Positions 16,200 through 28,830 of a stretch of 64,000 nt of DNA are shown piece after piece. Under the pieces are notes generated by a model. That model searched no databases and had not been told where the DNA came from. It worked only from the letters and a program-made list of their open reading frames with translations. Source of the DNA: Shimia aestuarii (GTDB lineage: Bacteria > Pseudomonadota > Alphaproteobacteria > Rhodobacterales > Rhodobacteraceae); the NCBI RefSeq assembly GCF_900114635.1, contig NZ_FOTQ01000007.1, positions 62,001-126,000 on the forward strand, in the 5' to 3' direction. Position numbers and translations under genes: made by a program. The stretch's first letter is position 1. Every line of letters starts with the position of its first letter.

Positions 16200-16877
16200 A
16201 TGCGCGTCGCTTTCCTTGCCCTTCTCCTGCTGGCTGCCTGCTCCCGTCCCCTGACCGACTCCGAGCGCGCCTTTGCCGCCGATCTGGCGGGCGACACGTT
16301 CGATCCCGCCCCGGTGCGCATCACCGCCGATGTGCCGCTTGGCGTGGCCACCTTCAAATACGAAAAACGCCCCCGCCTGTCGTGTCGCGAACGCATCTTC
16401 CCCGAACCCTCGGGCGAAGTCATCACCACCTCTCCGGCGGGCGTCGTGCTCTGGAACCGTCTGCTCACCTCCGAGGGCTGGTATCTTGACAACTACATGC
16501 CCGGCTACCCCGAACAGATGAACCTGCAGGCGGCGCTGTTCTTTGCGCATGAGATGGTGCATGTCTGGCAATGGCAGAACCGCGACATCACCGGCTATTC
16601 CCCCCGCCGCGCCGCGCGCGAACACAGCACCAGCGACGATCCCTATCAGTTCGAGCTTCAGACCGAGACCGCCTTTCTCGACTATGGCTATGAACAGCAG
16701 GCGTCGATTGTCGAGGAATATCTCTGCTGCGCGGTTCTTGACCCCAAGGCCCCGCGCACCAGCCGCCTCAAGGCGATGCTGGGCGAGGTGTTCCCGGTCG
16801 AAAACCTGCCTCGCCCGACAAACGTCGCCCTGCCGTGGAAAGATGCCGAGCTACGCGGCATCTGCCGGGCATCCTGA
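16200..16877 (+). CDS. Lipoprotein with an HEMVH zinc-protease-like motif
   Basis: 225 residues. The N-terminus is a lipoprotein signal peptide (MRVAFLALLLLAACS; lipobox LAAC). Near residue 117 it has HEMVHVWQWQ, an HExxH pattern that occurs in zinc metallopeptidases, followed at a distance by E residues (ETAFLDYGYEQQASIVEEYL) that could supply a third ligand. Catalysis is unproven. It would sit on the periplasmic side of the inner or outer membrane. Four 11-bp repeats and a bidirectional terminator follow directly. Confidence 0.75.
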   Translation: MRVAFLALLLLAACSRPLTDSERAFAADLAGDTFDPAPVRITADVPLGVATFKYEKRPRLSCRERIFPEPSGEVITTSPAGVVLWNRLLTSEGWYLDNYMPGYPEQMNLQAALFFAHEMVHVWQWQNRDITGYSPRRAAREHSTSDDPYQFELQTETAFLDYGYEQQASIVEEYLCCAVLDPKAPRTSRLKAMLGEVFPVENLPRPTNVALPWKDAELRGICRAS

Positions 16878-16880
16878 TCC

Positions 16881-16924
16881 ATACCGACGTAATACCGACA
16901 CAATACCGACGTGATACCGATCAC
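16881..16924. repeat. 11-bp-period tandem repeat, array 1
   Basis: Four head-to-tail 11-base units: ATACCGACGTA (16881), ATACCGACACA (16892), ATACCGACGTG (16903) and ATACCGATCAC (16914). The array starts three bases after a stop codon and ends eight bases before a terminator stem. An array of the same unit in the opposite orientation lies at 25411-25454. Confidence 0.85.
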
Positions 16925-16974: not shown

Positions 16975-17553
16975 TTACTTGTATCCAAAGGCCGAATTCG
17001 GGATCAAACCCCGCTTTCCACCGGGCGGCGTCCACTCGCTCTCGTAACACGCAGTCCCTTCTTTTTGATAGTAAAATGCCTTGAATTCATACCATCCGGG
17101 CGACGGCACCCGCACCTTCGGACGGCCCGCGCTCGAGCATGGATTGATCCCGTCCAGACGCCCGACCTGCTGCCCCGAGATCCAGACCTGCAAGCCGTCA
17201 TTGGCATACCATTCCAGCTTGTACTCCCCCGCCTGATCAAACTTGATATACCCCGAGAACCGCGCCACGATATGCTCATAGGCATTGGAGCCGAACATCG
17301 TTGCCCCCTTGCCTTTATCCGGCCATTGCAGCTTGGAAATCGCCGAAACCTTCGCATCGGAAGCCAGCTTGCCATTCGCCTCGCTCAGGCTGCGCGGACG
17401 GATATCCGGGCCCGTTCGAAACTGCATTTTCAACCCCTGCTTCAACCCCGATGGTTGCGGGCTGGCAGGTTTCAATTCAATCACTCCGGCCATCGCCACA
17501 CTGGAAATCAACGCGAACACACCGGCCAGAATACTGGTTATTAACGATTTCAT
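16975..17553 (-). CDS. Secreted PA14-domain protein
   Basis: 192 residues. A Sec signal peptide is present (MKSLITSILAGVFALISSVA with cleavage after AMA). The mature protein is a single PA14-type beta-barrel (HIVARFSGYIKFDQAGEYKL, EWYANDGLQVWISGQQVGRL near residues 95-130), a fold that often binds carbohydrate; two Cys near the C-terminus could form a disulphide. GGAGGGGAGA precedes the ATG. It stands alone, with a shared terminator at its 3' end. The ligand is unknown. Confidence 0.8.
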   Translation of the reverse strand: MKSLITSILAGVFALISSVAMAGVIELKPASPQPSGLKQGLKMQFRTGPDIRPRSLSEANGKLASDAKVSAISKLQWPDKGKGATMFGSNAYEHIVARFSGYIKFDQAGEYKLEWYANDGLQVWISGQQVGRLDGINPCSSAGRPKVRVPSPGWYEFKAFYYQKEGTACYESEWTPPGGKRGLIPNSAFGYK

Positions 17554-19646: not shown

Positions 19647-22301
19647 ATGGCGACCCATTTCGAAGACATCGACCCAATTGAAAGCCGCGAATGGCAAGAA
19701 GCCGTCGAGGATGTCATTGCACGCGATGGGGCTGATCGAGCCCATTTTTTGCTGGACAAAGCAGTGCAGCAAGCGCGCGCTGCCGGAGCCAATCTTCCGT
19801 TCTCGGCAACCACACCCTATCAGAACACAATCCCTGCGGACGATCAGGATGATTTCCCAGGCGATATGGAGATGGAGTGGCGGATCCGTACGATCAATCG
19901 TTGGAATGCCATGGCGACGGTCGTGCGCCGGAACAAGGAATCTTCGGAATACGGCGGACACATCGCGTCCTTCGCCTCGTCGGCCGTGATGTATGATATA
20001 GGGTTGAACCATTTCTGGCGAAGCAAATCCGCCATTCACGGCGGCGACCTTGTTTTCTTTCAGGGTCACGTGATCCCCGGTATCTACGCGCGCTCCTTCA
20101 TGGAAGGTCGCCTGACAGAAGAGCAGTTGGAGAACTTCCGGTCGGAAGTGTCGGGCGAAGGGTTGTCTTCTTACCCGCACCCGTGGCTGATGCCCGACTA
20201 CTGGCAGTTCCCCACCGTTTCTATGGGTCTTGGGCCGCTGATGGCGATCTATCAGGCGCGGTTCATGAAATATATGCACAACCGCGGCCATATCGACATG
20301 GCGGACCGCAAGGTCTGGTGTTTCCTTGGTGACGGAGAGATGGACGAGCCGGAGTCGCGTGGCGCAATCGACCTTGCCGTACGCGAAGGGCTCGACAACC
20401 TGATCTTTGTCATCAACTGCAACCTGCAACGCCTGGACGGACCGGTGCGTGGCAACGGCAAGATCGTTCAGGAACTCGAAGGTGACTTCCGTGGCGCCGG
20501 CTGGAACGTGATCAAGCTCCTCTGGGGCAAGGGTTGGGACCAGCTCCTGGAAAAGGACACCTCGGGTAAACTGCGCCAGTTGATGGATGAAACCGTCGAT
20601 GGCGACTATCAGACCTTCAAATCCAAGGATGGCGCGTATATCCGCAAGAATTTCTTTGGAAAATACCCGGAAACCGCCGCGCTGGTCGAGGACTGGAGCG
20701 ACGAACAAATCTTTAGCCTGAACCGTGGCGGCCATGATCCGCAAAAAGTCTATACCGCATTCAAGAAGGCGACCGAAACCAAAGGCACCCCAACCTGTCT
20801 TCTGGTGAAAACCATCAAAGGCTATGGCATGGGCACCGCGGGTGAGGGGCAGAACACCACCCACCAGCAAAAGAAAATGGCCGAAGATCAGCTGCGCGCC
20901 TTCCGTGACCGTTTCAAGATCCCGGTAAGCGATGAGGACCTGCCCAAGGCCCCCTTCGTCCAGTTGAACAACGCGCAAAAGGCGTACCTGGCCGACCGTC
21001 GCAAAGCGCTGGGGGGAGAATTCCCAAAGCGGTTCAGCGACGCGCCGAAGCTGGACATCCCCGCGCTTGAGAAGTTCGCAACCCAGCTCAAGGGCACCGG
21101 CGAGCGCGAGATTTCAACCACCATGGCCTTTGTCCGCATCCTGACCACGCTGTTGCGTGACAAACAGATCGGCAAGAACGTGGTACCGATCGTGCCGGAT
21201 GAAAGCCGCACCTTTGGTATGGAGGGGCTGTTCCGCTCGGTCGGTATCTACAACCCGATGGGGCAGAACTATACCCCCGAAGACGCAGACCAGATGATGT
21301 ACTATAAGGAATCGGTCAACGGCCAGGTTCTGCAGGAAGGCATCAACGAAGCCGGCGCCATGGCCGACTGGATCGCTGCTGCCACCGCTTACAGCAACCA
21401 CGGTGTGCCGATGATCCCGTTTTTCATCTACTATTCGATGTTCGGCTTCCAGCGGATCGGCGATCTGGCATGGGCGGCGGGCGACAGCCGCGCACGCGGC
21501 TTCATGCTGGGCGGCACCGCCGGGCGGACAACGCTGAACGGGGAAGGCCTACAGCACGAGGACGGCCACAGTCACATCCTCGCCGGGACCATTCCGAACT
21601 GCATCACCTACGACCCGACTTTCCAGTACGAGGTTGCCGTTATCGTGCAACACGGGCTCAAGCGAATGTACCAGGATCAGGAAGACGTGTTCTTTTACCT
21701 CACGCTTATGAACGAAAACTATGCCCATCCCGACATGCCCATGGGTGTCGAAGAGGAGATCATTAAAGGGCTTTATCGTTTCAAAGAGGTTAAGAAACCG
21801 ACCAAGAAGCACGTGACCCTGATGGGGTCGGGTACGATCCTTGTGCAGGCGATCAAGGCCGCAGAGATGCTCGAAGAGGATTTCGGCGTGACTTCGGAGA
21901 TCTGGTCCGCGACCAGCTTCAACGAACTGGCCCGCGATTGTCAGGACGTGGCCCGCTTCAACCGTCTCAACCCGCTGAAGGACCCCAAGACATCTTTCGT
22001 GGCCGAGCAATTGAGCAAGGCCAAGGGTCCGGTCATCGCGGCCACCGACTACATGAAGAACTATGCCGAGCAAATCCGCTCCTGCGTACCGGGGCGCTAC
22101 ACGGTACTGGGCACGGACGGGTTTGGCCGCTCGGACAGCCGCGTGAACCTGCGCCGGTTCTTCGAAGTGGATGCCAACCACATCGCTGCTGCCGCCATGG
22201 TGGATCTCTACCGCGAAGGCAGCATCACCAAATCCGTGCTCGAAAAAGCACTCAAGAAATATGACATCGACGGCGCCAAGCCGAACCCGCGCCTGGTGTG
22301 A
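19647..22301 (+). CDS. aceE: Pyruvate dehydrogenase E1, homodimeric type
   Basis: 884 residues, matching the single-chain AceE form instead of the alpha/beta type. The ThDP motif GDGEMDEPESRGAIDLAVRE begins near residue 228, and the match to AceE extends over the whole length. It decarboxylates pyruvate and acetylates the lipoyl group of E2. AGGAGGAGG is eleven bases before the ATG. It is first in aceE-aceF-lpd, with gaps of 23 and 13 bases. The palindrome at 19586 probably regulates it. Confidence 0.97.
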   Translation: MATHFEDIDPIESREWQEAVEDVIARDGADRAHFLLDKAVQQARAAGANLPFSATTPYQNTIPADDQDDFPGDMEMEWRIRTINRWNAMATVVRRNKESSEYGGHIASFASSAVMYDIGLNHFWRSKSAIHGGDLVFFQGHVIPGIYARSFMEGRLTEEQLENFRSEVSGEGLSSYPHPWLMPDYWQFPTVSMGLGPLMAIYQARFMKYMHNRGHIDMADRKVWCFLGDGEMDEPESRGAIDLAVREGLDNLIFVINCNLQRLDGPVRGNGKIVQELEGDFRGAGWNVIKLLWGKGWDQLLEKDTSGKLRQLMDETVDGDYQTFKSKDGAYIRKNFFGKYPETAALVEDWSDEQIFSLNRGGHDPQKVYTAFKKATETKGTPTCLLVKTIKGYGMGTAGEGQNTTHQQKKMAEDQLRAFRDRFKIPVSDEDLPKAPFVQLNNAQKAYLADRRKALGGEFPKRFSDAPKLDIPALEKFATQLKGTGEREISTTMAFVRILTTLLRDKQIGKNVVPIVPDESRTFGMEGLFRSVGIYNPMGQNYTPEDADQMMYYKESVNGQVLQEGINEAGAMADWIAAATAYSNHGVPMIPFFIYYSMFGFQRIGDLAWAAGDSRARGFMLGGTAGRTTLNGEGLQHEDGHSHILAGTIPNCITYDPTFQYEVAVIVQHGLKRMYQDQEDVFFYLTLMNENYAHPDMPMGVEEEIIKGLYRFKEVKKPTKKHVTLMGSGTILVQAIKAAEMLEEDFGVTSEIWSATSFNELARDCQDVARFNRLNPLKDPKTSFVAEQLSKAKGPVIAATDYMKNYAEQIRSCVPGRYTVLGTDGFGRSDSRVNLRRFFEVDANHIAAAAMVDLYREGSITKSVLEKALKKYDIDGAKPNPRLV

Positions 22302-22324
22302 TCGGGAAGAGAGGAGACATTACG

Positions 22325-23584
22325 ATGACTGTTGAAGTGAAAGTTCCCGATATCGGCGATTTTTCGGACGTCCCGGTTGTGACCGTTCTGGTCAGCGTGG
22401 GCGACGTGATTGCCGTGGAAGACCCGATTGTTGAACTGGAAAGCGACAAGGCCACGATGGAAGTGCCCTCGTCTGCAGCCGGTAAGGTGGTCGAGATCAA
22501 GGTGAGCGAAGGGGACACCGTGTCCGAAGGCTCTTTGATCCTGATCGTGGAAGGAGAAGGTGCTGGAGAGGCGCCGGCGGAGAAACCTGCCGAAGCCCCC
22601 ACGGCAGCCCCTGCCCCGGTAGCGCCGGCGGCCGCGCCCGCATCGGCACCTGCCGTGACGGATGCCGGGTTTGGCAAAGCCCACGCCTCGCCTTCGGTCC
22701 GCGCTTTTGCGCGCCAACTGGATATTGACCTGGCCAAGGTGAACGGATCGGGCCGAAAGGGTCGCATCCTGCGCGAAGACGTCACCGCCTTCCTGAAGTC
22801 TTCGACCGCAGCGGCCCCGGTCGCTGGTGGTGCGGCGCAGGGCGGCATGGGCATCCCGCCGATCCCGGTGGTGGATTTCTCGAAATTCGGCCCCGTCGAA
22901 GACGTGGAAATGCCGCGTATCAAGAAAATCAGCGGCCCGGCATTGCACCGCTCGTGGCTGAACGTGCCGCATGTGACGCATAATGACGAAGCCGACATCA
23001 CCGACCTTGATAAATATCGCAAGGAGATGGACACGGCGGCCAAGGAAGACGGCTATCGTGTGACCCTGCTGTCGTTCGTGATCAAGGCGTCAGTCTCGGC
23101 GCTGAAACAGCATTGGGAAGTCAACTCGTCGATCCACCCAGATGGCGATAAACTGATCAAGAAGGACTACTACAACATCGGTTTTGCGGCGGACACGCCC
23201 AACGGCCTCGTGGTGCCGGTGATCAAGGACGCCGACCGCAAGGGGCTGGTCGAGATCTCCAAGGACCTCATGGAACTTAGCGCCAAGGCGCGCGCCGGCG
23301 AACTGAAAGGCCCCGACATGCAGGGCGCCACTTTCACCATCTCGTCGCTGGGCGGCATTGGCGGCACCAGCTTTACCCCGATCGTGAATGCACCCGAAGT
23401 GGCGATCCTCGGTCTGACGCGCTCGAAAATGGCACCGGTCTGGAACGGTGAAGAGTTCGTGCCGCGCCTGATTCAGCCCTTGTCACTGTCTTATGATCAC
23501 CGCGCCATTGATGGGGCCCTGGCCGCACGCTTCTGCGTGACGCTCAAGACCCTGCTCGGCGACATGCGCAAGCTGATGTGGTAA
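22325..23584 (+). CDS. aceF: Pyruvate dehydrogenase E2, dihydrolipoyl acetyltransferase
   Basis: 419 residues from ATG 22325, with AGAGAGGAG upstream. There is one lipoyl domain (residues 1-80; the lipoyl Lys lies in ESDKATMEVPS), an Ala/Pro-rich linker, a peripheral subunit-binding domain (ASPSVRAFARQLDIDLAKVN near 122) and a catalytic domain ending with the active-site SYDHRAIDGALAARF (His392). It forms the complex core and transfers acetyl to CoA. Its lipoyl domain shares 35 identical consecutive bases with that of the downstream lpd. A single lipoyl domain is fewer than the three of E. coli AceF. Confidence 0.97.
   Translation: MTVEVKVPDIGDFSDVPVVTVLVSVGDVIAVEDPIVELESDKATMEVPSSAAGKVVEIKVSEGDTVSEGSLILIVEGEGAGEAPAEKPAEAPTAAPAPVAPAAAPASAPAVTDAGFGKAHASPSVRAFARQLDIDLAKVNGSGRKGRILREDVTAFLKSSTAAAPVAGGAAQGGMGIPPIPVVDFSKFGPVEDVEMPRIKKISGPALHRSWLNVPHVTHNDEADITDLDKYRKEMDTAAKEDGYRVTLLSFVIKASVSALKQHWEVNSSIHPDGDKLIKKDYYNIGFAADTPNGLVVPVIKDADRKGLVEISKDLMELSAKARAGELKGPDMQGATFTISSLGGIGGTSFTPIVNAPEVAILGLTRSKMAPVWNGEEFVPRLIQPLSLSYDHRAIDGALAARFCVTLKTLLGDMRKLMW
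22433..22467 (+). repeat. 35-bp direct repeat shared by the aceF and lpd lipoyl domains
   Basis: The 35 bases around the lipoylated Lys codon of aceF recur without mismatch at 23700-23734 in lpd. They encode ELESDKATMEV in both. Confidence 0.85.
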
Positions 23585-23597
23585 GGAGGAGATTAAC

Positions 23598-25325
23598 ATG
23601 GAAATTCAAGTCCCTGATATCGGTGATTTTTCCGATGTACCCGTCATCAGCATCTTGGTTTCTGTCGGCGACACCGTCGCCGCAGAAGATCCGTTGATCG
23701 AACTGGAAAGCGACAAGGCCACGATGGAAGTGCCGTCGCCTGCGGCAGGCGTCGTAAAAGAGATCAAGGTGGCCGAAGGTGATACCGTTTCCGAAGGCAC
23801 CGTCATCATGATCTTCGAAGGCGCTGGCGCAGAGGAAGCCCCCAAGGCCAAAGCGCCCGCGGCTCCGGCAGCCCCGCAATCGGTCGCGGCCACGGGCACG
23901 GCGACCGGTCCCGGTGACGTGCATGCCGAGGTGGTTGTGCTGGGCTCTGGCCCCGGTGGCTACACTGCAGCCTTCCGCGCCGCCGACCTCGGCAAAAAAG
24001 TTGTGCTGATCGAAAAGGACGCGTCGCTTGGCGGGGTTTGCCTCAATGTCGGCTGTATCCCCTCCAAGGCGCTTCTGCATGCTGCGAAAGTGATGACCGA
24101 AGCCGAAGACATGGCGCATCACGGCATCACTTTTGCGAAGCCAGAGGTCGATATCGACGCGCTGCGCGGATGGAAAGAGAGCGTTATCAACCAGTTGACC
24201 GGCGGTCTTGCCGGGCTGGCGAAGGCGCGCAAAGTGCAGATCGTGGACGGCTATGGAACCTTCACCGGCCCCAACATGATCGAGGTCGACAATGATGGCG
24301 CCAAGAGCACCGTCAGTTTTGATCAGTGCATCATTGCCGCCGGGTCCGAACCTGTCACCCTGCCCTTCATCCCTCATGATGATGAGCGCGTGATCGACTC
24401 GACCGGCGCGCTGGAACTCAAGGACGTTCCTGAACGGCTTCTTGTTCTGGGCGGTGGCATCATCGGTCTGGAAATGGCTTGTGTCTATGACGCGCTGGGG
24501 TCGAACGTGACCATTGTCGAGTTCATGGACCAGATCATTCCGGGTGCCGACAAGGACATCGTCAAGCCCCTGCACAACCGGATCAAGGGCCGCTACGAAG
24601 CGATCCTGACCAAGACCAAGGTCACGGGTGTCGAGGCGACGGACGCAGGTCTCAAGGTCACGATGGAAGGTCCGGACGGCGAAAAAGTCGACACGTTCGA
24701 CAAACTGCTCGTTGCCGTGGGCCGTCGCCCGAATGGCGCTAAGGTCAACGCAGCGGCGGCGGGTGTTGCCGTGGACGAGCGGGGCTTTATCGCGGTCGAC
24801 AACCAGCAACGCACTGGCGTGCCTCACATTTTTGCCATCGGGGACGTGGTTGGCCAACCTATGCTGGCCCACAAGGCTGTGCACGAGGGCAAGGTTGCGG
24901 CAGAGGTCTGTGCCGGTCACAAGCGCTACTTTGATGCGCGTGTGATCCCGTCCGTTGCCTATACCGACCCCGAGGTCGCGTGGATTGGCGTAACCGAGAC
25001 CCAGGCCAAGGCCGAGGGCATCAAGCTGGGCAAGGGGTCATTCCCTTGGGCCGCCTCGGGCCGCTCCCTGTCGCTCGGCCGTTCGGAAGGCATCACCAAG
25101 GTGCTGTTTGACGAGCATGAGCGCGTCATCGGAGCAGGCATTGTCGGTCCCAACGCGGGCGACCTGATCGCCGAGGTGGCGCTGGCCATCGAAATGGGAT
25201 CAGACGCGGTGGACTTGGGCCACACGATCCACCCGCACCCCACGCTCAGCGAAACGGTGAACTTCGCCGCAGAGATGTTCGAAGGCACCATCACCGACCT
25301 GATGCCGCCGAAGAAGAAAAAGTAA
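23598..25325 (+). CDS. lpd: Dihydrolipoamide dehydrogenase E3 with N-terminal lipoyl domain
   Basis: 575 residues, about 100 longer than ordinary E3. Residues 1-80 are a lipoyl domain (lipoyl Lys in ESDKATMEVPS), followed by an Ala/Pro linker and the flavoprotein. The latter has the FAD motif VVVLGSGPGGYTAAFRAADL, the redox disulphide Cys148-Cys153 (GGVCLNVGCIPSKALL), an NAD motif LVLGGGIIGLEMA, and the C-terminal HTIHPHPTLSET that supplies the catalytic His and Glu. It reoxidises dihydrolipoyl groups and makes NADH. AGGAGG is eight bases before the ATG. The fused lipoyl domain implies that this E3 is dedicated to this complex. Confidence 0.97.
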   Translation: MEIQVPDIGDFSDVPVISILVSVGDTVAAEDPLIELESDKATMEVPSPAAGVVKEIKVAEGDTVSEGTVIMIFEGAGAEEAPKAKAPAAPAAPQSVAATGTATGPGDVHAEVVVLGSGPGGYTAAFRAADLGKKVVLIEKDASLGGVCLNVGCIPSKALLHAAKVMTEAEDMAHHGITFAKPEVDIDALRGWKESVINQLTGGLAGLAKARKVQIVDGYGTFTGPNMIEVDNDGAKSTVSFDQCIIAAGSEPVTLPFIPHDDERVIDSTGALELKDVPERLLVLGGGIIGLEMACVYDALGSNVTIVEFMDQIIPGADKDIVKPLHNRIKGRYEAILTKTKVTGVEATDAGLKVTMEGPDGEKVDTFDKLLVAVGRRPNGAKVNAAAAGVAVDERGFIAVDNQQRTGVPHIFAIGDVVGQPMLAHKAVHEGKVAAEVCAGHKRYFDARVIPSVAYTDPEVAWIGVTETQAKAEGIKLGKGSFPWAASGRSLSLGRSEGITKVLFDEHERVIGAGIVGPNAGDLIAEVALAIEMGSDAVDLGHTIHPHPTLSETVNFAAEMFEGTITDLMPPKKKK

Positions 25326-25331
25326 ACGCAG

Positions 25332-25359
25332 CGCGCCGCCCTCACTCAAGGGCGGCGCG
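25332..25359 (+). terminator. Gene-end hairpin after lpd
   Basis: CGCGCCGCCCT (25332-25342) pairs fully with AGGGCGGCGCG (25349-25359) over a 6-base loop, four bases after the stop region. No T-run follows, so it may act as an mRNA-stabilising end or as a weak terminator. Confidence 0.6.
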
Positions 25360-25410
25360 AAGCACTTGAATAACGATCATTAAGTCTCTGATACCAAGCC
25401 AAAAGTGCCT

Positions 25411-25454
25411 TCGGTATCACGTCGGTATTACGTCGGTATCGCGTCGGTACTGCA
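25411..25454. repeat. 11-bp-period tandem repeat, array 2
   Basis: Four 11-base units: TCGGTATCACG (25411), TCGGTATTACG (25422), TCGGTATCGCG (25433) and a degenerate TCGGTACTGCA (25444). This is the reverse complement of the unit at 16881-16924. It lies between lpd and the cyclase gene, which converge. The rest of the 214-base gap shows only the lpd hairpin. Confidence 0.85.
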
Positions 25455-25539
25455 GTGCAGAAATTTCCGGGTCACGCGGCATTTCGGAAGCCCTTGGACT
25501 GCGCGCAAAACCTTCGGCTCGAACTTAATCTCCCTCCGC

Positions 25540-27000
25540 TTACCCTTTCCCGGCGCCTAGATCCTTCAACGCGGATCTCAGGAGCGCGACAATCTCTTGC
25601 CGCCTTCCGTCTTTCAGAAGCGCACGGTTGATCGTCAGCGAGATTGCATCATCGCTATGATGGATAATTTGCCCCTTCTCTGCCAGACCATCATAAAGAC
25701 CCGCCACGCGGTAGGTCCTGACCGGTTTGGCAAACCCCTTGACCGAAATCTCGCCCACAGGTTCGGCCAGCACCGTGTCTCGCACAAGGGACCAGGTTTC
25801 GTGCGCCAATAGAATGCCTCCCGTCTCTGCGGCGCTTTCCAGCCGTGCCGCAAGGTTCACCTCGCCGCCGATAATCGTGTAGTCCATCCTGTCCTCGGAC
25901 CCGAAATTGCCAACCGTGCAATACCCGGTATTTATGCCGATGCGCATTTCAAAGGGGCGCTCGAGCCCCTGATCAAGCCAGCGCTGCCGCAGTTCGTACA
26001 TGCGGCGCTGCATGGCGATGGCCATGCGTACAGCCTGAAGAGCATCCTGCTTGACTCCCAATGTGTCAGGGTCGCCAAAGTAGAGCACGATGGCATCGCC
26101 GATGAACTTGTAAAGATTTGCACCGTGTTCCTGCGCAATGCGGCTCATTTCCGTGAGGTATTCGTTCAATAGGTCGGTGAGTTCCTCGGACTGCATTTGG
26201 TCGGTGGTTTCCGTGAAACCCACGATGTCGGAGAAAAACACCGTAAGCTTCTTGCGTTTGCTTTCGACACGCACCTCCTGATCCCCCCTCAAAATCGCCT
26301 GATACAGTTGTGGAGAGATGTACTTGGCCAATTGACGGGAGACATTTTCGAGTGATTGGTTTGCCATTTCGACGCGAAACCGAGACTCCATCAGACCTTT
26401 CTCGGCGGTCGTTGCAGCCCACTCAAAAAGCCCAATCATTGTCGCCATCAGGAACGGCAAGCAAACTGAATTGAAAGCAAAAAACAGCGTGTCAAAGCGC
26501 GGTCCCATCGGTGTGAGTGGTCCATTTTGCAACGTCCAAGCCCCGGATAGAGCCAGAGCAACAACGAAGAGCGCGGCAATGGCCACACGTGCAGGGCGCG
26601 GAGCAAAAGGCATTATCACCGCCATTAGGACGGAGTTCACGATGTAGAAAAAGAACGCTGGCTCGACGCCAAAGTAAAGTGTCGCGACCACCCCGTGCAA
26701 CGGAATCTCAATCAGGACAGCAAGAATGTAAGCCACAACGCTGAAACGGTTCTGCACGCAGACTATCCAAACCGCCCAGCCCCAAATCACCACGCTGGCG
26801 AGGTTGAACAGAAACATAGGCATGTGCCCGAGCGCATAAAATATGAAAACAAATCCTAGATGCACCAGAAATGCCGATGGATAGCCAACACGCCCCATGA
26901 CGTGCATTCGCATTTCTTGATCGCTCAAGCCGTCGGGACGAACCGAGAAGTAGCCCCGGACTTTTTGTGAGATGTCAGCCAAAGCCAATGCTTTTTCCAT
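25540..27000 (-). CDS. Membrane-anchored class III adenylate cyclase
   Basis: 486 residues. About six N-terminal membrane spans (residues 40-210) form a membrane sensor-type region. A short linker (ENVSRQLAKYISPQLYQAIL) leads to a class III catalytic domain: metal Asp in VFFSDIVGFTETTD near 260 and in YKFIGDAIVLYFGDP near 303. The Lys in YKFIGD and the Asp in DYTIIGGEVNLAARLE, together with the transition-state Asn and Arg in the same stretch, favour ATP over GTP as substrate. It should make cAMP at the inner membrane. It is a single gene; the linker is characteristic of a common cyclase group. Confidence 0.92.
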   Translation of the reverse strand: MEKALALADISQKVRGYFSVRPDGLSDQEMRMHVMGRVGYPSAFLVHLGFVFIFYALGHMPMFLFNLASVVIWGWAVWIVCVQNRFSVVAYILAVLIEIPLHGVVATLYFGVEPAFFFYIVNSVLMAVIMPFAPRPARVAIAALFVVALALSGAWTLQNGPLTPMGPRFDTLFFAFNSVCLPFLMATMIGLFEWAATTAEKGLMESRFRVEMANQSLENVSRQLAKYISPQLYQAILRGDQEVRVESKRKKLTVFFSDIVGFTETTDQMQSEELTDLLNEYLTEMSRIAQEHGANLYKFIGDAIVLYFGDPDTLGVKQDALQAVRMAIAMQRRMYELRQRWLDQGLERPFEMRIGINTGYCTVGNFGSEDRMDYTIIGGEVNLAARLESAAETGGILLAHETWSLVRDTVLAEPVGEISVKGFAKPVRTYRVAGLYDGLAEKGQIIHHSDDAISLTINRALLKDGRRQEIVALLRSALKDLGAGKG

Positions 27001-27051
27001 TTATTTCCTGGAAACAGCATACAGAAGTCAGGCGGATATCCTAAACCCGAT

Positions 27052-28830
27052 TTATAGCGGCCAGAAGAACGGGATCAGCGCCGAAGCCAGCACCCCGACC
27101 GACAGGTTCAGCGGAATGCCGACGCGCATGAAGTCGGTAAAACGGTATCCACCGGGGCCGTAGACCATCATGTTGGTCTGATAGCTGATCGGGGTGGCGA
27201 AGGTTGCGCTGGCGGCGATCATGACGGCCACAACAAGGGGGCGCGGATCAACCCCGAGCGAGGTCGCAATCCCGATCGCGACCGGGGTCAACACCACCGC
27301 GACGGCATGGTTGATGGTTTCTGAGAGCAGCGACGTCAGCAGGTAGATGGACCAGACGATCAGGAACGGAGGCAACCCCTGAATATAAGGAGAGATCGCA
27401 TGCACGATCATCTCGATGGCGCCCGATGTCTCAAGCGCTGTGGCCACGGCCAGCATGGCGAAGATCAACGCAAGCAGGCGGCCATCGACAAAGCCAAAGG
27501 CTTCGTCGCTGTCGATACACCGGGTCAGGAAGACCATTGCCATAGCCAGAACCGCCAAGAGAAGGATCGGCGCCACGCCGAAGGCCGCCAGGATCACGAT
27601 CCCTGCAAGGGCCGCGATTGCCAGAGGCGCATGGCTGCGCCGATAGGCCCGGTCGGTCGGCTTGGACACGTCAAGCAGGTTCATTTCCTTGGCCAAGCGC
27701 TGGATATCTTCGGGCGCCCCTTCCAGAAGCAGGGTGTCGCCCGGTTGAACCACAAGATCGTCAAGCTGGCGCCCGATATTCCTGTCCCGGCGGTGAGCCG
27801 CGATAGGATACACCCCGAACCGACGCCGCAGGCGCAGATCGCCGAGCTTGCGCCCGACCATCTTGCAATTCGGCGTGATCAGCGCCTCGACGGTCGTGGT
27901 TTCCACCGCCGACACCTGATCGACCCGCTTCAGGCTCTTGTTGCGCTGCAGGCTCAGGAGTTCGGTCATCTTTGTGCGCAGCACCACCCGGTCGCCAACC
28001 TGAAGAACCACATCCTTGAGATTGCGCCGCAGCGAGGCATCCCCGCGGATCACATCCACCAACCGCACGCCGTCACGCTTGAAAAGCTGTACGTCCAGAA
28101 CCTCGCGCCCGATCAGGTTGGACTCGGGCGGGACCACCGCCTCGGTAAAAAACTTCTTGGACGCCTTGTCCGATGAGAGCATGTCCGCCATGCTGTCGCG
28201 GGCCGGCAGCAGGCGCGGCGCGACAAACCGCAGGTAGAGCCCGCCCCAAATGGCCAAAACGATCGCCAGCGGGGTCACTTCGAAAATCGTAAACGGCTCC
28301 ATCCCCCGTGACCGCGCCACACCATCCACCAGAAGGTTGGTCGACGTGCCGATCAGCGTAAGGCACCCCCCAAGGATCGCGGCATAGCTGAGCGGAATCA
28401 GGAACTTGCTGGCCGACATGTTCAACTTTCGGGCCAACTGCACGAATACAGGGATCATTACCACGACAACCGGCGTGTTGTTCATGAAGGCAGAAGCCAC
28501 CATGACAAACACCATGAGGGCACCAATTGCCAGGGCAGGATTGCGTTCGGCCTGGGACTCGGCCAACTGCGTGAACCAATCGAGTGCCCCGGTTCGAACC
28601 AACGCCCCCATGACAATGAACATGGCGGCAATGGTCCATGGTGCCGGGTTGGAAAGCACATGGAGCGCTTCCTCGTAGCTCAGGAGCCCCAACACCAGCA
28701 TGACGGCAGCTCCGGTAATGGCAACCACCTCGGCCGGATATGCTTCGCGCATGAAAAGAGCAAACATGCAAGCGACAACTCCAAGGGCAAGAAATGCTTG
28801 TGTCGTTTGTGAAAAATCAAAAAGTTCCAT
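27052..28830 (-). CDS. SLC13-family permease with two TrkA-C domains
   Basis: 592 residues. An N-terminal half-transporter (about residues 5-185; six spans) and a C-terminal half (410-590) flank a cytoplasmic insert holding two RCK/TrkA-C domains (near 215-300 and 310-390; VVLQVGDRVVLRTKMTELLS and LVVQPGDTLLLEGAPEDIQR). These are Na+-coupled anion or dicarboxylate carriers of the divalent anion:sodium symporter type, sometimes sulfate carriers. Phe-rich MELFDFSQTTQAFLALG starts the protein. The substrate cannot be read from sequence. It stands alone, 44 bases before the DMT gene end. Confidence 0.9.
   Translation of the reverse strand: MELFDFSQTTQAFLALGVVACMFALFMREAYPAEVVAITGAAVMLVLGLLSYEEALHVLSNPAPWTIAAMFIVMGALVRTGALDWFTQLAESQAERNPALAIGALMVFVMVASAFMNNTPVVVVMIPVFVQLARKLNMSASKFLIPLSYAAILGGCLTLIGTSTNLLVDGVARSRGMEPFTIFEVTPLAIVLAIWGGLYLRFVAPRLLPARDSMADMLSSDKASKKFFTEAVVPPESNLIGREVLDVQLFKRDGVRLVDVIRGDASLRRNLKDVVLQVGDRVVLRTKMTELLSLQRNKSLKRVDQVSAVETTTVEALITPNCKMVGRKLGDLRLRRRFGVYPIAAHRRDRNIGRQLDDLVVQPGDTLLLEGAPEDIQRLAKEMNLLDVSKPTDRAYRRSHAPLAIAALAGIVILAAFGVAPILLLAVLAMAMVFLTRCIDSDEAFGFVDGRLLALIFAMLAVATALETSGAIEMIVHAISPYIQGLPPFLIVWSIYLLTSLLSETINHAVAVVLTPVAIGIATSLGVDPRPLVVAVMIAASATFATPISYQTNMMVYGPGGYRFTDFMRVGIPLNLSVGVLASALIPFFWPL

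Follow-up and report, generated by a model that had tools for sequence, protein, structure and literature searches.

The window, a 64,000-nucleotide stretch of the Shimia aestuarii genome, contains two short tandem arrays. Array 2 occupies positions 25411–25454 on the plus strand. It lies between lpd (23598–25325, plus strand), which encodes a dihydrolipoamide dehydrogenase with an N-terminal lipoyl domain (Pfam matches to lipoyl and pyridine-nucleotide oxidoreductase domains), and a convergent gene for a guanylate/adenylate cyclase-domain protein (25540–27000, minus strand). The array consists of four 11-bp direct units, each made of a 7-bp TCGGTAT core and 4 further bp, which read in order TCGGTATCACG TCGGTATTACG TCGGTATCGCG TCGGTACTGCA. 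The letters, the coordinates and the degenerate last unit were correct in the initial annotation. Upstream of array 2, an A-tract at −10 to −7 (25401–25404, plus strand) occupies the flanking position that is most conserved across the array family in column profiles, and a TTAA at −31 to −28 (25380–25383, plus strand) stands where TTAA is enriched among the arrays of this genome.

Array 1, the sister of array 2, also has four units, which read on the minus strand TCGGTATCACG TCGGTATTGTG TCGGTATTACG TCGGTATGGAT. It had been placed at 16881–16924; the four-unit sister array was recovered, and its position is 16877–16920 on the minus strand. A 225-aa ORF without Pfam match (16200–16877, plus strand) ends at array 1, and the convergent neighbour is a PA14-domain ORF (16975–17553, minus strand), so that both arrays lie at convergent gene ends, as had been claimed. 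Tandem Repeats Finder scored array 2 at 64 and array 1 at 59; the array model described below (R1) scored them at 59.9 and 55.2 bits.

The three-unit pattern TCGGTA-N5-TCGGTA-N5-TCGGTA had no occurrence in 200 shuffled windows. In the window's own genome (G000, 4.23 Mb in 27 contigs), the pattern had 95 matches (34 on the plus strand, 61 on the minus strand), against 0 for the letter-reversed control, and the two-unit pattern had 183 matches, also against 0. A chance repeat was ruled out by the shuffles and the reversed-pattern control. R1, a sequence-only model of 58 positions, was built from 72 of 79 array sequences; the best 150 candidates per genome were scored for G000 and for the genus counts. 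The search of G000 gave 91 matches of at least 38 bits, followed by four of 28 to 14 bits. The score gap from 38 to 28 bits showed that the arrays form a discrete class and not a continuum. Arrays 1 and 2 are members of a chromosome-wide set, not a local pair. For analysis of context, 68 stretches round arrays (1.33 Mb) were taken from G000; these contain 81 of the 91 strong arrays.

Among these 81 arrays the unit number was four in 69, three in 10 and five in 2. Of 317 same-strand distances of up to 60 bp between TCGGTA words, 314 were 11, 22 or 33 bp. In four genomes, unit frames 1–4 had a high mean match to TCGGTAT, and frames 0 and 5 were at background level. In column profiles of 79 of the 81 arrays (the two five-unit arrays were omitted), the 7-bp core was near-invariant in units 2 and 3, and so were the initial five letters of unit 4; variation was greater in units 1 and 4. 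The array form differed between genomes as dialects: unit 1 is preferentially TCTGTAT, and unit 4 TCGGTGC, in a second Shimia genome (G170) and a genome of another genus (G293).

The approximately 40 bp before the array show an alternation of A/T and G/C, about 10 bp in period. In G000, G170, G293 and Pseudooceanicola spongiae (G149), A/T-rich steps were found near −9, −19, −30 and −39 and were separated by G/C. The phasing was also present in 85 arrays of named loci, with an upstream period of 10–10.5 bp, and it was weaker downstream of the arrays than upstream. TTAA flanked the G000 arrays upstream in 39/79 and downstream in 38/79, compared with 7% and 6% of 330 control regions.

GANTC, the recognition sequence of the CcrM methylase, was found at −45 to −35 in 35/79 G000 arrays, about 2 being expected; 29 of these were GAATC, and examples include L001, L008 and L024, where it lies about 41–40 bp upstream of the first unit. 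In the other genomes it was found in 2/22 arrays of G170 (both at −40) and at −45 to −35 in none of G149 or G293. A CcrM site was therefore rejected as a universal part of the array, since it is nearly restricted to G000 among the four genomes. By eye, several arrays fall into sub-families with near-identical upstream flanks of about 30–45 bp (C5:3525, C13:114168, C14:11524, C18:43021, C18:844531, C18:473061 and others), and some G000 arrays share a TTAA-GCGGCG-like block downstream. The common flanks of the sub-families hint at copying or concerted change.

A hairpin or single-stranded DNA element was rejected, as the four arrays that were folded had no predicted ssDNA hairpin (z 0.13, −0.52, 1.75 and −0.05). 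A search of 8 array loci in Rfam gave two matches, both far under the gathering score. An RNA element was rejected on this result and on the tandem gene pairs, 18 of 35 of which have the array on the strand opposite to the genes.

Gene context was determined with a home-made codon-model gene caller. Clearly intergenic positions were found for 76/81 arrays, though 88.6% of the sequence is coding; four arrays lie inside called genes and one at a stretch edge. One of the four (L154, G000:C18:628075) is a four-unit array within a called coding frame of 1044 aa, which indicates that arrays are tolerated in some genes. By intergenic length, convergent regions were enriched in arrays (34/76, 11.0 expected, p 2e-10), divergent regions were depleted (7/76, 21.9 expected, p 6e-5), and tandem regions held 35/76 (43.2 expected, p 0.06). 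In tandem pairs the array had the same direction as the genes in 17 cases and the opposite direction in 18; judged by GC skew, 16/17 of the former and 16/18 of the latter agreed with the skew.

These counts bear on the reading of the initial annotation, in which the array acts on transcript ends or supercoiling of the convergent gene pair. The convergent excess is in its favour, and terminator-like hairpins were seen by eye close to both window arrays. However, 42/76 arrays are not convergent, and the direction of the arrays in tandem pairs is independent of the genes and follows the skew. A role in transcript ends or supercoiling is therefore not what the arrays best point to, and we regard this reading as very improbable. 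Replication direction is a stronger correlate of the arrays than the convergent gene pair.

The leading strand is G-rich, and GC skew, an established marker of it, was the sole basis on which replication direction was read. In 74/81 G000 arrays, and in 62/62 where |skew| was at least 0.07, the TCGGTAT strand coincided with the G-rich strand of the array's 20-kb stretch. All seven disagreeing arrays, array 2 included, lie in weak-skew stretches. On contig C18, the 22 fetched arrays below 1.0 Mb all agreed; a mixed region lies beyond, where 13/14 followed the local skew. Isolated TCGGTAT words of the same stretches were on the G-rich strand in 80/140 cases, and the intergenic ones in 7/11; this control is slightly skewed itself, and few of its words are intergenic. 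That the polarity is a by-product of base composition was rejected, since the isolated words reach 80/140 only. Polarity was also found elsewhere, with agreement of 21/22 arrays in G170, 16/18 in G293 and 18/22 in G149 (7/62 disagreeing overall). Named loci agreed in 59/61 cases at |skew| of at least 0.05 and in 18/25 below 0.05; this set includes P. spongiae records and is thus independent of the G000 arrays but not wholly of G149. Read this way, with GC skew taken as the leading-strand marker, the arrays point from origin to terminus.

In its 20-kb stretch, the strand that carries array 1 is the G-rich one, in line with the local skew; the local skew at array 2 is weak (−0.064 over 20 kb, −0.008 over 6 kb). 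The two arrays are opposite in orientation, as had been stated, but this is a local exception. In the window, GC skew is about zero over 20001–28000 (0.019 and −0.014), with −0.147 and −0.113 in the adjoining 4-kb bins, and further near-zero bins were seen at 36–44 kb and 56 kb. The stretch 20001–28000 may have been inverted locally long ago, together with array 2.

Leading-strand polarity and intergenic placement would also suit a polar element acting on the fork, either a Tus-Ter-like barrier or a replication-restart element such as a primosome or recombination hotspot site. The sites were found on 12 contigs throughout the genome, not in one terminus trap, and a fork element of this kind is considered quite unlikely.

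The spacing of the arrays was determined for 90 arrays on 12 contigs (3.81 Mb), which corresponds to one array per 42 kb. In G000 the coefficient of variation (CV) of the gaps was 0.62, compared with 0.94 ± 0.09 for uniform random placement, and 0/5000 simulations were that low. There was no gap under 5 kb (9.3 expected) and one over 100 kb (5.2 expected). In P. spongiae the evenness was weaker, with a CV of 0.77 at a cut-off of 24 bits or more, and it varied with the cut-off (p 0.009, 0.20 and 0.07 at 24, 27 and 30 bits); strand runs were marginally fewer than by chance (20, 26.7 expected, sd 3.5).

Conservation was analysed at the lpd site and by orthologous neighbours. Downstream of lpd, an array-like sequence was found by eye in 16/21 congeners, often degenerate and in the same direction relative to lpd. 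It was absent in G150, G152, G156, G172 and G173, and three more congeners gave no lpd match. In L214, L219, L220 and L225 the lpd array is partly decayed, with mismatched units, and the upstream TTAAC is still visible. For the orthologue comparison, matches below 45% identity or 70% coverage were omitted; the G170, G293 and G149 stretches were centred on arrays from score-ordered lists, and four array-free G293 stretches were added. Among G170 genes with an orthologue in the G000 stretches, 17/19 of those adjacent to an array had the orthologue beside a G000 array, compared with 4/87 of the more distant genes. For 13/22 G170 arrays a flanking gene was common to a G000 array, with the same direction relative to the gene in 13/13; the other 9/22 had no orthologue in the G000 stretches. 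Between genera the positions were mostly lost, with 2/8 in G149 (one array; far genes 5/48) and 0/8 in G293 (far genes 2/28). Array positions are thus largely kept within the genus and mostly not between genera.

In the genus (25 genomes including the window's own), 22 genomes had 51–99 model matches, and three array-poor congeners (G152, G172 and G173) had 2, 1 and 0. The site class is therefore dispensable. The exact three-unit pattern, which misses diverged dialects, was found in 12/25 genus genomes and 4/149 family genomes. R1 found at least one match in at least 31/295 family genomes (at least 30/294 genera), and nine or more in at least 16; in the class sample at least 5/385 genomes had a match, four of them in the same family and the fifth single and weak. 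The family and class figures are lower bounds, as the best 18 and the best 14 candidates per genome were scored. Among the matches listed, the named carriers included Roseovarius, Salinihabitans, Pseudooceanicola, Shimia, Silicimonas, Boseongicola and Sulfitobacter, and 91/110 named loci with the bare pattern scored above 25 on the array matrix; the other 19/110 scored lower, and most of these came from unrelated phyla. One match outside the class, L130 of Cupriavidus sp. IDO (NODE_230), scored 28.0 on the array matrix; it is a chance match, a contamination or a real outlier.

A search of PLSDB and INPHARED with one 53-base consensus query gave no match at E 0.01. IMG/VR contained 66 loci with the bare pattern, of which one was clearly array-like (L315, IMGVR_UViG_3300037791_000022, score 67; the next scored 27.9). 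L315 is perhaps host DNA on a provirus contig. On these results a plasmid- or phage-borne element was rejected.

A short mobile repeat, either REP/MITE-like or moved by single-strand transposition at forks, would explain the orientation bias by insertion into one template strand. Single-strand transposition is known to have a strand bias, and the near-identical flanks that some arrays share by eye would fit such copying. The persistence of the lpd site among congeners, the gene neighbours common to G170 and G000, the lack of an ssDNA hairpin in the four folded arrays and the lack of a PLSDB or INPHARED match to the one consensus query all count against mobility; even spacing and a mostly fixed unit number would be unexpected. 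Mobility of this kind is given a low probability as the origin of the arrays.

Known systems were compared with the arrays feature by feature. KOPS are short single 8-mers of the GGGNAGGG type, which are far more frequent than the arrays and also occur in genes. FtsK follows small oriented repeats in moving DNA towards dif, according to PMC7901474. Like KOPS, the arrays are chromosome-wide and have leading-strand polarity (for the arrays by GC skew); unlike KOPS, they number about 91 per genome, are mostly four-unit sites of 44 bp, are clearly intergenic in the great majority (76/81) and are not octamers. The matS sites are dispersed and discrete, one per tens of kb, and their palindrome is confined to the Ter region. 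The arrays resemble the sites of the matS/MatP system in being dispersed, discrete and one per tens of kb, but they are polar direct repeats on 12 contigs and lack both the palindrome and the restriction to the terminus.

The mycobacterial PhoP binds 7-bp direct repeats separated by a strict 4-bp spacer, including four such repeats in succession, according to PMC4832192. The arrays have this geometry of OmpR/PhoB operators (e.g. those of PhoP of M. tuberculosis), with 7-bp direct repeats and a strict 4-bp spacer. However, OmpR/PhoB operators act at promoters, whereas the arrays are depleted in divergent regions and their direction follows the skew. The TAACTGA heptamer direct repeats of Beggiatoaceae, as excerpted from PMC4679880, form 169 intergenic sets of 2–6 copies, mostly just upstream of start codons and facing the gene. 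They are like the arrays in being abundant intergenic sets of heptamer direct repeats and, among the matches listed, are the nearest printed parallel; they differ in their variable copy number and start-codon position, and the excerpt describes neither a phased flank nor replication polarity.

REP/BIME elements and strong gyrase sites resemble the arrays in being intergenic, present in many copies and placed at gene ends, with phased DNA in the gyrase sites. They differ in that the arrays are direct repeats with a mostly fixed copy number and replication polarity, and the four folded arrays had no predicted hairpin such as the imperfect palindrome of REP/BIME forms. In E. coli, gyrase sites are enriched in BIME-2; each site has two arms of 47 bp, in which the GC period is 10.75 bp. 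The strong-site motif is 130 bp, symmetric, with two periodic arms round an aperiodic 36-bp centre (PMC6379681). Arrays acting as strong DNA gyrase sites would have the phased flank and the 44-bp repeat wrapped round GyrA C-terminal domains and would control supercoiling at gene ends, like the Mu SGS or BIME-2. The approximately 10-bp A/T phasing at the arrays, set beside the periodicity in that source, and the preference for convergent ends are consistent with this. However, the arrays are phased from about −40 through the array, fading after about +60, and the A/T profile of −60 to −1 and +44 to +103 showed no second 47-bp arm, the motif being compared by its description. Gyrase is thought to recognise shape, whereas the array cores of units 2 and 3 are near-invariant; it is presumably kept by the array-poor congeners, and by itself it does not predict leading-strand polarity. 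The gyrase explanation is regarded as unlikely.

In each comparison with a tested family, at least one defining feature was lacking in the array element or left open. Among the matches listed for an open-access collection of papers, searched by letters and by description, there was no account of it, though a passing mention could be missed.

The initial annotation had argued for function over chance from the recurrence of two arrays. This argument is supported by the 91 strong copies, the mostly fixed unit number, the strict spacing, the within-genus positions and the polarity. Genome-wide, the arrays are in non-random contexts, and not in the random ones that it had named as evidence to the contrary.

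The reading that we favour, with confidence slightly above even, is that array 2 belongs to a class of polar sites spread over the whole chromosome, bound by a putative head-to-tail tetramer and serving a chromosome-scale process from origin to terminus. The repeat beside lpd is probably a docking site for a putative protein that handles the whole chromosome. A mostly fixed count of direct subsites, one helical turn apart, requires a protein capable of head-to-tail stacking; a sequence-specific protein would bind the four subsites as a head-to-tail tetramer. The geometry would be that of OmpR/PhoB-type winged helices, although any former of direct-repeat filaments would fit, and the PhoP-like geometry fits this protein family by analogy but does not prove it. 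The phased flank suggests that the flanking DNA may be bent or wrapped, as in gyrase sites. A binder gene adjoining the site was considered and rejected: the sole array position common to G000, G170 and G149, between what we take to be YhhQ-like and ArfB-like genes, had no evident DNA-binding gene.

A direction that tracks replication and not transcription, together with even spacing, points to a chromosome-scale process, and the depletion in divergent regions and the independence of gene direction, which argue against a transcription role, favour the same. The sites may serve segregation, or may guide a translocase or SMC complex. For a large bound complex, convergent gene ends would be the places of least harm. 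Turnover of positions with retained number, polarity and form would be expected where density and direction outweigh the exact place.

More tentatively, and as a possibility that we hold to be rather less than probable, the sites may be direction signs: polar, even, tetrameric docking places for a dedicated protein, whose direction is read by a mover from origin to terminus (SMC, translocase or fork), as a bacterial CTCF-like boundary. The protein would co-evolve with its sites, which would give rise to the genome dialects.

To our knowledge, the known bacterial chromosome-wide families of replication-polar sites are short words. The arrays are long, mostly four-unit, evenly spaced and polar, with many orthologous positions kept in the genus and a dialect of their own in other genomes. 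The array-poor congeners G152, G172 and G173 are natural comparisons for finding the binding protein. The site class predicts a DNA-binding protein and, with it, a layer of chromosome organisation.
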